NCBI RefSeq assembly: GCF_013378075.1 | Contig: NZ_CP051131.1 | Span: 248,001-312,000 of the forward strand | DNA length: 64,000 bases | From: Parasphingopyxis algicola | GTDB lineage: Bacteria > Pseudomonadota > Alphaproteobacteria > Sphingomonadales > Sphingomonadaceae | Reading direction: 5' to 3' | Part shown: positions 1,876 through 4,015 of the stretch, piece after piece | Position numbering within the stretch: the first letter of the stretch is position 1 | Layout of the letters: each line of letters opens with the position of its first letter | Notes under the pieces: model-generated | The model's database searches: none | What the model was told of the DNA's origin: nothing | Seen by the model: only the letters and a program-made list of their open reading frames with translations | Program-made: the position numbers and the translations under genes

Positions 1876-2811
1876 ATGCGGGCATTCATCTTTCCGGGGC
1901 AGGGCAGCCAGGCCGTCGGCATGGGCGCCGCGCTAGCCGAAGCGAGCGCGGTGGCGCGGGAAACGTTCGAGGAGGTGGACGAGACGCTCGGGCAGAAACT
2001 TTCCAAGCTGATGCGCGAAGGGCCCGAGGACGAGCTGACGCTGACCGAGAATGCCCAGCCCGCGATCATGGCGAACGCGATCGCCACCTTGCGGGTGCTC
2101 GAGAAAGAGGGCGGTGTCACGCTTGCCGACACGGCCGATTTCGTCGCCGGGCACAGCCTGGGCGAATATACGGCGCTCTGCGCGGCCGGCGGGTTCGATC
2201 TCGCCACGACGGCGCGTTTGCTCAAACGACGCGGCCAGGCGATGCAGGCGGCTGTGCCGGTGGGCGAGGGGGCGATGGCGGTGTTTCTGGGCCTCGATTT
2301 CGCGCCTGCGCAGGAAGTGGCCGAGGCTGCCGCCCAGGGCGAGGTTTGTGTGATCGCCAATGACAATGCGCCGGGTCAGATCGTGATTTCCGGCCACAAG
2401 GCGGCGGTCGACAGGGCCTGCGAGATGGCGAAGGAAAAGGGGGCGCGCCGTGCGATGCCGCTCACCGTATCGGCGCCGTTTCACTGCCCGCTGATGAAGC
2501 CCGCGGCCGATGCGATGGAAGAGGCGCTGGCTGGTGTCGAAATCCATCCGCTGTCCGCGATGCTCTATGCGAATGTCACAGCCTCGGCGGTCGGCGAGCA
2601 TGAGGCGATCCGCGGGCTTCTGGTAGAGCAGGTGACGGCGATGGTCCGCTGGCGCGAAAGCATCGCGGCGATGGCGGACGAGGGCGTGAACCAGTTTGTC
2701 GAGTTCGGCGGCAAGGTCGTTGCGCCGATGGTCAAACGCATCGCGCCCGACGCTGACCAGAAGAGCGTTGTCTCGATGGACGATATCGAGGCGCTGGCGA
2801 GACAATCGTGA
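1876..2811 (+). CDS. fabD: malonyl-CoA:ACP transacylase
   Basis: This 311-residue protein transfers malonyl from CoA to acyl carrier protein, supplying the extender unit for cytosolic type II fatty-acid synthesis. The GQGSQ motif is at residues 8-12. The nucleophile Ser94 sits in GHSLGEY and the catalytic His203 in APFHCPLM. Length and start match the family. It heads the cluster fabD, fabG, acpP, fabF, mltG. The last codons overlap a GTG start of a GxxExxY gene that interrupts the usual fabD-fabG junction. No separate promoter was identified with confidence in the 90-bp gap from the divergent upstream gene. Confidence 0.96.
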   Translation: MRAFIFPGQGSQAVGMGAALAEASAVARETFEEVDETLGQKLSKLMREGPEDELTLTENAQPAIMANAIATLRVLEKEGGVTLADTADFVAGHSLGEYTALCAAGGFDLATTARLLKRRGQAMQAAVPVGEGAMAVFLGLDFAPAQEVAEAAAQGEVCVIANDNAPGQIVISGHKAAVDRACEMAKEKGARRAMPLTVSAPFHCPLMKPAADAMEEALAGVEIHPLSAMLYANVTASAVGEHEAIRGLLVEQVTAMVRWRESIAAMADEGVNQFVEFGGKVVAPMVKRIAPDADQKSVVSMDDIEALARQS

Positions 2812-3218
2812 ATCACGCGAAGACGCAAAGACGCGAAGGAGTTGATCGCGAGGCAGTCGCCACGGACATCATAGATGCCGCGCTCGCACTGCATAAAGAT
2901 CTGGGGCCCGGATTGCTGGAAAGCGTGTACGAGATGGTCCTGGCCGCCGAACTGGAACGGCGGGGCCATTCGATCATTCGTCAGCGCCCGGTTGATATAG
3001 AATACAAGGATTTGCGCTTCGATGCCGCGTTCAGGATCGACTTGCTAGTCGATGACTGCGTGTTGATCGAGGTGAAATCGGTAGAGCGTTTAAGCCGTGT
3101 CCATCAAAAGCAGTTGCTGACCTATCTCAAATTGACAAAGCAGCCCCTTGGGCTGCTTATCAACTTTGGCGGAGCAACTCTCAAAGAAGGCCTCCATCGC
3201 GTCGTCAACAATTATTGA
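2808..3218 (+). CDS. GxxExxY family protein
   Basis: A 136-residue protein with the family signature GLLESVYE at about residues 42-49. Residues DLLVDDCVLIEVKSVERL resemble a PD-(D/E)XK-type core (acidic residues followed by E-V-K), so a nuclease-like fold is possible but activity is unknown. Translation starts at GTG overlapping the fabD stop (GTGA). The first residues (NHAKTQRREG) are encoded by the left arm of a perfect 25-bp inverted repeat whose right arm begins two bases after the stop codon. The gene is visibly more A/T-rich than fabD or fabG, which suggests acquisition. It probably relies on readthrough from fabD. Function is not established for the family. Confidence 0.85.
   Translation: MNHAKTQRREGVDREAVATDIIDAALALHKDLGPGLLESVYEMVLAAELERRGHSIIRQRPVDIEYKDLRFDAAFRIDLLVDDCVLIEVKSVERLSRVHQKQLLTYLKLTKQPLGLLINFGGATLKEGLHRVVNNY
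2814..2838 (+). repeat. left arm of 25-bp inverted repeat bounding the GxxExxY gene
   Basis: The 25 bases, built from two related GAAGACGC/AAAGACGC blocks, are the exact reverse complement of 3221-3245. The arm lies inside the N-terminal coding sequence. Confidence 0.93.
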
Positions 3219-3220
3219 TA

Positions 3221-3245
3221 CTTCGCGTCTTTGCGTCTTCGCGTG
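3221..3245 (-). repeat. right arm of 25-bp inverted repeat bounding the GxxExxY gene
   Basis: This is a perfect reverse complement of 2814-2838. It starts two bases after the GxxExxY stop and lies 33 bases before the fabG start, so the repeat brackets exactly one gene. Confidence 0.93.
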
Positions 3246-3277: not shown

Positions 3278-4015
3278 ATGTTCGATCTTTCAGGCAAAAC
3301 CGCGCTGGTGACCGGCGCGTCGGGCGGCATCGGGTCCGCGATCGCCAAGGCGCTGGCGGCGCAGGGCGCGAAAGTCGCGCTGTCCGGCACGCGCGACGAG
3401 GCGCTCAAGGCGGTGGCGGCGGCGATCGGCGGCGATCCGGTGATTTTGCCGTGCAACCTCTCCGATCCGGAAGCGGTCGATGCGCTGATCCCCGCGGCGA
3501 TCGAGGCGCTCGGGCAGCTCGATATCCTCGTCAACAATGCCGGTGTGACGCGCGACAATCTCGCGATGCGGATGAAGGACGAGGAATGGAGCGACGTCAT
3601 TCGCATCAACCTGGAAGCCGCATTCCGGCTGGCGCGCGCCTCGCTGCGCCCGATGATGAAGGCGAAGGGCGGGCGGATCATCTCGATCACGTCGGTCGTG
3701 GGCGCCACCGGCAATCCGGGACAGGCCAATTATGCGGCCTCCAAGGCCGGTCTGGTGGGCATGTCCAAGGCGCTGGCCCAAGAGGTCGCGAGCCGCGGGA
3801 TCACGGTGAATTGCGTCGCTCCGGGCTTTATCCGATCCGCGATGACGGAGGAACTGCCCGATGCGCAGAAAGAGGCGCTGATGACCCGGATTCCGGCCGG
3901 AAAACTGGGCGAGGGCGAGGATATCGCCGCCGCCGTCGCCTATCTCGCATCGGACGAGGCGGCCTATATTACCGGCGAAACCTTGCATGTGAACGGCGGA
4001 ATGGCGATGTTATAG
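3278..4015 (+). CDS. fabG: 3-oxoacyl-ACP reductase
   Basis: A 245-residue short-chain dehydrogenase that reduces 3-oxoacyl-ACP with NADPH in fatty-acid elongation. The Rossmann motif TGASGGIG is at residues 12-19, NNAG at about 86-89, and the catalytic Ser139, Tyr152 and Lys156 are in place. The ATG at 3278 gives the normal N-terminus (MFDLSGKTALVTG); an in-frame ATG at 3215 would add 21 residues translated through the inverted-repeat arm and is unlikely. Its distance from fabD is enlarged by the inserted GxxExxY gene. Confidence 0.96.
   Translation: MFDLSGKTALVTGASGGIGSAIAKALAAQGAKVALSGTRDEALKAVAAAIGGDPVILPCNLSDPEAVDALIPAAIEALGQLDILVNNAGVTRDNLAMRMKDEEWSDVIRINLEAAFRLARASLRPMMKAKGGRIISITSVVGATGNPGQANYAASKAGLVGMSKALAQEVASRGITVNCVAPGFIRSAMTEELPDAQKEALMTRIPAGKLGEGEDIAAAVAYLASDEAAYITGETLHVNGGMAML

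Follow-up and report, generated by a model that had tools for sequence, protein, structure and literature searches.

Among the closest described counterparts of the locus analyzed here is the intervening sequence of the 23S rRNA gene. That of Coxiella, as given in the excerpted parts of its description, measures 428 nt, ends in a 28-bp terminal inverted repeat, carries tandem heptamers (GACAGAT) at its 5' end as well as an S23p open reading frame, and is cleaved by RNase III (PMC4990558). To the extent covered by these parts, the present locus displays the same layout: about 430 nt in length, it has a terminal inverted repeat, carries short units in tandem on its 5' side and encloses one small open reading frame in the loop. 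It differs, however, in that this inverted repeat surrounds the gene of a predicted nuclease and is located between the protein genes fabD and fabG instead of 23S rRNA. REPIN/RAYT (TnpAREP) systems, in which RAYT is an HUH tyrosine enzyme, offer another parallel. In these systems, short dispersed hairpins are accompanied by a nuclease gene present once or in a few copies, and hairpins tied to a gene are likewise found across the family studied here, yet not in the genome of our locus itself, which holds two arms only. In contrast to RAYT, the GxxExxY protein belongs to the PD-(D/E)XK type, only PF13366 and TIGR04256 and no HUH nuclease matching it, and its arms are tandem 8-mers. With Cas4/RecB-family nucleases it appears to share the fold as well as PD-(D/E)XK and QxxxY motifs. 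Cas4 proteins carry iron-sulfur cysteines; unlike Cas4, the GxxExxY protein comprises only 136 aa, and its gene is flanked by fabD and fabG, not by cas genes. Gene-less inverted-repeat copies, as observed here, are also reminiscent of MITEs, whereas a target duplication was not found. Among the titles, beginnings of abstracts and text passages searched, no publication was found that links GxxExxY genes to inverted repeats; the names TIGR04256 and PDDEXK_3 did not occur in this literature, and GxxExxY and PF13366 were rarely named.

The window, i.e., the whole stretch of 64,000 nucleotides of the Parasphingopyxis algicola genome that was analyzed, contains the GxxExxY gene between two genes which we take to be fabD and fabG (Table 1); a relative of the fabD protein is present in all 10 genomes of the genus. 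Orientation of the flanking genes by their longest open frame was set aside, since GC-rich DNA tends to contain long open frames on the antisense strand as well. The perfect 25-bp inverted repeat claimed in a preliminary description of this DNA is indeed present, its two 25-nt arms being 100% complementary and 382 nt apart. Likewise, the insert is more A/T-rich than its neighbors, as had been proposed, with a GC content of 53.5% in the gene vs 66.5% in fabD and 65.7% in fabG, and the GC content of the gene lies below that of its flanks in 72 of 73 relatives. Each arm is made up of three 8-mer units of the form RCGCRRAG, and the left one provides the codons for residues 3-10 of the protein, provided that GTG is used as start. 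A 23-nt arm pattern with up to three mismatches matches only the two arm sites in the window, where 0 matches are expected, which rules out a chance origin of the inverted repeat; with a 24-nt pattern and again up to three mismatches, no arm copy beyond these two was detected in the 3.67-Mb genome. Across 81 gene-bearing relatives, the element spans 430-563 bp (median 462 bp). The segment 2808-3252 folds strongly as single-stranded DNA (z -8.06). A known Rfam RNA was rejected as identity of the element, since the loci scanned gave no Rfam match (one scanned locus, L108 from the same genome, is without the element).

Table 1 Features of the GxxExxY locus (positions refer to the window; the gene names fabD and fabG are our assumption)
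Feature	Position	Strand	Basis or remark
fabD (malonyl-CoA-ACP transacylase), upstream host gene	1876..2811	+	ORF
GxxExxY / PDDEXK_3 gene, 136 aa	2808..3218	+	ORF, PF13366, TIGR04256; GTG start overlaps fabD stop
Left arm, three 8-mer units	2814..2838	+	Encodes HAKTQRRE if GTG at 2808 is the start
GxxExxY motif G35-E38-Y41	2910..2930	+	Conserved in 104 (G), 103 (E) and 106 (Y) of 106 sequences
PD-(D/E)XK core D78 ... E88-x-K90	3039..3077	+	D in 106, E in 106, K in 105 of 106 sequences
QxxxY motif Q102-Y106, presumably of Cas4/RecB type	3111..3125	+	Of 106 sequences, 105 have Q and all have Y
Right arm, perfectly reverse-complementary to left arm	3221..3245	-	Starts 2 nt past the stop codon
Proposed element, 432 bp including both arms	2814..3245	.	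Arms and DNA fold
fabG, downstream host gene	3278..4015	+	ATG at 3278; same frame open from an earlier TTG

The encoded protein is assigned to PF13366 with 130 bits (cut-off 22, E 6.9e-38) and to TIGR04256 (GxxExxY) with 133.4 bits (cut-off 35, E 4.5e-39). Its AlphaFold2 model reaches a mean pLDDT of 89.7 and finds its best fold match in the PDB with SSO0001 (4ic1), presumably a Cas4 protein, at E 3.0e-3, a probability of 1.00 and a TM-score of 0.55. Next in rank come splicing endonucleases, MGME1, an Argonaute-associated Cas4-family protein and others; no match in this fold search reaches E 0.001, and the PDB sequence search returned no match. Among the PADLOC profiles, Cas4 gave E 1.3e-4 and a reverse transcriptase (RT)-associated PDDEXK profile 2.3e-4. 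With a median dN/dS of 0.078 (179 pairs of 80-98.5% identity, pairs with saturated synonymous sites dropped) and near-invariant nuclease motifs, the protein is under purifying selection. Judged from model and profiles, it looks like a minimal nuclease of the Cas4/RecB type. In the excerpted text of one report, the same gene was named cas4 by one program and GxxExxY by another (PMC8934634).

How regularly the arms accompany the gene was assessed by comparing the sequences that flank each gene on its two sides and scoring the inverted repeat they form against shuffled controls. Within the family of the window, 53 of 249 genomes yielded 78 PF13366 matches, of which 75 were used after leaving out two fragments and the window's own gene; a further two lay at contig ends, so that 73 loci were scored. 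Of these, 66 exceeded the highest shuffle (12.5), while among 1334 control windows with identical geometry at these loci only 21 did so. The median score was 24.5 for a locus's own arms vs 9.5 for arms paired with those of another locus, and 37 of the 73 loci surpassed the 99th percentile (24.0) of such cross-locus pairings, a share limited by the fact that arms have a consensus in common. Among close homologues, the window included, 80 of 81 loci scored above every shuffle (14.0); this set partly overlaps with the 249 genomes (L004, G051), and the two are therefore not independent. For a second proteobacterial group (f28), from which all 30 GxxExxY loci listed originate, two were dropped at contig ends, and 25 of the remaining 28 lay above their shuffles among the matches listed. 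Eight genes taken from five other proteobacterial families, two fragments being left out, contributed three such loci, two of them very strong. Plasmid records from other phyla, of which six out of seven matches were read, showed an inverted repeat at two loci, clear in Bacteroides (22.5 vs 11.5) and narrow in Bernardetia (18.0 vs 16.0); phage records contained no GxxExxY match. The link between gene and arms is thus strong in two groups and patchy elsewhere, with arms at 5 of 14 loci outside the family and f28.

The recurrence of the inverted pair at other GxxExxY loci, by which the preliminary description had proposed to check its reading, is accordingly borne out in the family, the close homologues and, among the matches listed, f28. 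Genes without a repeat, which it had regarded as a sign of coincidence, do exist: no shuffle-beating score was obtained at 7 of 73 loci in the family, 3 of 28 in f28 (among the matches listed), 5 of 8 in the other proteobacterial families and 4 of 6 on plasmids; the majority of family and f28 loci, however, possess the repeat. Its suggestion that the repeat has been co-opted as coding sequence holds for the left arm of the window, given the GTG start, but needs to be restricted for the relatives. There, an in-frame start codon precedes the left arm in only 16 of 69 loci tested, the remainder having leader sequence at this place, and hence the coding left arm of the window represents the less common state. 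The right arm, in turn, begins before the stop codon in 78 of 80 repeat-bearing loci including the window, the exceptions being the window itself and L081, and thus encodes the C-terminal tail. As separate observations, one Sphingomonas MAG (L048, 3001-3411) carries the same gene with matching arms between genes which we take to be yebC- and ruvC-like instead of fabD and fabG, and on a Fusobacteria plasmid (L229, near 1501-1884) the copies of a GATTTAATCCGTGTACCTAT repeat that flank a GxxExxY gene are in direct rather than inverted orientation.

Units of 8 nt prevail in the family (53 of 66 loci), while f28 shows 9-10 nt in 20 of 25 loci among the matches listed. The same scoring was applied to S23p genes (PF05635) from 299 genomes of the phylum, where one of 30 loci was dropped at a contig end. 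Among the matches listed, 17 of 29 loci scored above all shuffles (15.0), in a sample with a mispaired 99th percentile of 27.9 and with tandem arms that can raise scores, and the units measured 7 nt in 16 of these 17. Hence, with S23p between 7-mer arms and GxxExxY between arms of its own units, two unrelated proteins reside in inverted arms built from tandem units. S23p-type genes between long inverted arms were seen, e.g., in L274, L277, L281 and L301, with TAGGCAG, GTGAGTA and GGCGAAT as 7-mers.

The arm units vary from locus to locus (CGCAGAG, CGCGGAG, CGCAAAG, CACGAAG, CGCCAAG and others), while the two arms of one locus remain alike. Based on 23 positions in those 62 of 81 loci that have three clear units on both sides, arms within one locus differ by a mean of 1.2 mismatches per 23 nt. 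The same arm compared between species shows 3.1-3.2 differences at 70-80% protein identity and 4.2-4.5 at 60-70%, but 1.1-1.3 at 80-90% and 0.1-0.5 above 90%; in close species, the same arm therefore differs about as little (80-90% identity) or less (>90%) than the two arms of a locus. In 10000 shuffled pairings of arms, none was as low as the true one, and a non-consensus base was shared by both arms 101 times and confined to one arm 68 times (62 loci). Picking the best-matching pair of arms, which could favor matching, and picking both arms independently gave the same numbers.

Sites with and without an insert, as known for mobile elements in general, occur among the relatives. In the genus of the window, the fabD-fabG junction is readable in eight of nine relatives, and in two of them (G236 and G195) fabD directly adjoins fabG without any insert. 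This provides the empty site that had been sought and supports the view that the insert separates two normally adjacent genes. In G249 and G252, arms of the CACACAAAG dialect are present without a gene just behind the fabD stop codon, with unshuffled inverted-repeat scores of 28.0 (in part due to a nested palindrome) and 17.5 vs 7.0 and 9.5 at the empty sites. The junction of G251 shows, by eye, a 3' arm only, and that of G253 holds another palindrome; in G074 and G142 (L117, L118), an apparently different short ORF fills it. Beyond this junction, a gene-bearing element of genome G108 lies between two genes that are separated by approximately 41 nt in G169 and 108 nt in G023, and three gene-less hairpins of G108 are missing at the same sites in G169. 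The element of G104 is absent from G015 and G166, where the junctions are rearranged, and was not counted as a clean empty site. A GTAGCTAGCAACAGAAACCCCCACC segment (L196 1880-1950, L303, L304), which may be a small RNA, was seen beside one element site and again in the element-less junctions of G015 and G166. With identities of only about 70-92% between the genes compared in these relatives, gain and loss of the insert are indistinguishable.

The target duplications considered in the preliminary description did not emerge: in 81 elements, direct repeats of 3-9 nt outside the arms were in no clear excess over mispaired flanks, the element boundaries in this test being approximate because arm ends were set by alignment. 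A transposon generating target duplications (DDE insertion sequence, MITE) was rejected on these grounds. With respect to genomic place, 24 of 75 family genes are located before a fabG-type start, 23 at five other shared places (eight before a DNLTHSLVG-type start, six before ETKAGDPGAFA, four before REIAK, three and two at the other two) and 28 elsewhere. On a tree of 72 proteins (117 columns, 32 of 69 inner branches open), these places require 14 changes compared with a shuffled mean of 37.8. Gene-bearing copies thus rarely change place, most of the genes being passed on at the position they already occupy. Even at the fabD-fabG position, which many sphingomonads share, the two arms of a locus match each other, and their perfect match in the window is therefore no sign of recent insertion. 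The element at this position is most likely old, kept and long settled. Of the minimal mobile or cargo unit originally envisaged, the recurrence in two groups, the insert-free loci and the gene-less hairpins therefore stand, but target duplications were not found and the places are clustered.

Hairpins without a gene were traced with a three-unit pattern (up to one mismatch) in the same 249 genomes of the family. The pattern is present in 40 of 53 gene-bearing vs 27 of 196 gene-less genomes (odds ratio 19, p 1.8e-17, uncorrected for kinship), so that 27 genomes have the repeat without a GxxExxY gene; the 13 gene carriers in which it is missing include 11 with an inverted repeat that the pattern does not fit. 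Within 28 mixed genera, gene carriers have more raw copies in 19, fewer in one and equal numbers in eight; after subtraction of two arms per gene, they have more in 16, fewer in three (g2, g5 and g52) and equal numbers in nine (p 0.004). Genome G108 harbors eight genes and 116 arms at up to one mismatch, with 0 hits for a reversed-pattern control, compared with one and no arm in its gene-less congeners G169 and G023; at up to three mismatches, G108, G169 and G023 contain 157, 2 and 1 arms, and the control gives 48, 3 and 1. Gene-less hairpins are scattered away from the gene. Many of the G108 arms inspected pair as hairpins with arm starts approximately 31-46 nt apart, a few at 130-142 nt, and one such hairpin searched in plasmids gave no match.

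The hairpins of G108 often lie inside a second, CGTC-type palindrome, and something else may therefore have spread them. Octamer hairpins nested in this way are found at L180 1126 and 9585, L181 977, L182 1299 and 3775, and L183 878, the outer palindrome reading CGTCGGCCCCGCGCAGGCGGGGCC... and resembling CGTC-tagged REPs; the octamer loop at L179 14208 contains a further repeat. CGTC-tagged palindromes are, in the excerpted text on them, known mainly from alphaproteobacteria (PMC3733652). Heptameric intergenic repeats, partly in inverted pairs, are described from Xanthomonas and, according to passages of that report, were not generally found with mobile elements (PMC4692102). In four genomes of genus g2 (G186, G095, G157 and G001), three of which lack a GxxExxY gene, hairpins occur with reversed arm order (minus then plus), their arms lying about 40-50 nt apart.

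With a probability of roughly 0.5, we consider the feature to be a gene-bearing stem-loop element, in which arms of about three 8-mers enclose the gene of a minimal Cas4/RecB-like nuclease that would act on its own arms, and which has gene-less relatives. Its best reading is that of an element of 0.43-0.56 kb with an anatomy like that of the S23p intervening sequences and a logic that may resemble that of REPIN-RAYT. Arms and gene occur together in two groups, the arms co-vary, sites exist with and without the element, and the nuclease motifs are intact. From this, we infer recognition and cutting of the arms by the nuclease, copying of the arms and mobilization in trans. In (single-stranded) DNA, the arms would pair into an extruded hairpin or cruciform, which the nuclease encoded between them would recognize and cut. 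Repair or template switching would then copy one arm onto the other, keeping both matched, and might occasionally place a copy of the hairpin, either alone or together with the gene, at another intergenic site. The short hairpins would represent non-autonomous copies that depend on the nuclease in trans, in the way REPINs depend on RAYT.

An alternative, which we regard as unlikely, assigns the arms to an RNA stem in the fab transcript, similar to the 23S intervening sequences cut by RNase III, with the gene as a passenger that processing of the transcript renders tolerable. The same anatomy together with RNase III cleavage is indeed documented for Coxiella in the excerpts mentioned (PMC4990558), and the strong fold (z -8.06), albeit computed as single-stranded DNA, is consistent with it. 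Selection for an RNA stem would be expected to leave more G-U than A-C mismatches between the arms. This applies to the fabD-fabG set (G-U 37, A-C 23, others 15), but across the family, at loci scoring 17 or more, A-C (55) is as common as G-U (47), next to 73 others. Lacking a consistent G-U preference, the mismatches make a constraint or a copying process that acts on DNA more probable than one that acts on RNA; on these counts, an mRNA stem was rejected as the main constraint and kept as a rival. The missing Rfam match and the gene-less hairpins scattered away from the gene also speak against it.

Unlikely, too, appears an ordinary, vertically inherited gene whose arms are a byproduct of slippage and quasipalindrome correction in purine-rich leader, ribosome-binding or tail-coding repeats. 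Even where no element is involved, inverted repeats can be perfected by template switching, and the low dN/dS (0.078), the clustering of places on the tree, the target duplication not found and the position of the left arm, mostly upstream of the start, all agree with such a gene. It would, however, leave unexplained the dispersed gene-less copies tied to gene presence, the loci without the whole insert, and the recurrence of this design in f28 with units of different sequence. That the arms are ends of a non-autonomous element which relies on an unrelated transposase for its movement and carries the nuclease gene as cargo seems very unlikely to us: in its favor, gene-less copies are common in some genomes and several G108 hairpins lie inside CGTC-type palindromes, but the same gene family is found between such arms in unrelated groups, and target duplication was not found.

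Returning to the stem-loop element with its own nuclease, a wider claim can be put forward tentatively, at odds clearly below even. The elements might constitute a new class of minimal selfish element, in which a Cas4-like nuclease is encoded inside its own substrate, an octamer DNA hairpin, whose arms would be kept alike by cutting and repair and whose gene-less hairpins would spread in trans. S23p with its heptamer arms would be a second, unrelated protein of the same design, and protein-in-hairpin elements, each family having repeat units of its own, would form one broad unrecognized kind that includes the 23S rRNA intervening sequences. More generally, a gene between self-matching inverted repeats in many relatives suggests an undescribed kind of tiny genetic element. 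For GxxExxY proteins, which are curated as families PF13366 and TIGR04256, the link between nuclease, arms and hairpins offers a concrete candidate substrate. The finding may likewise be relevant to intergenic short tandem repeats whose origin is unexplained, and it places the old question of the 23S rRNA intervening sequences and S23p in a wider frame.
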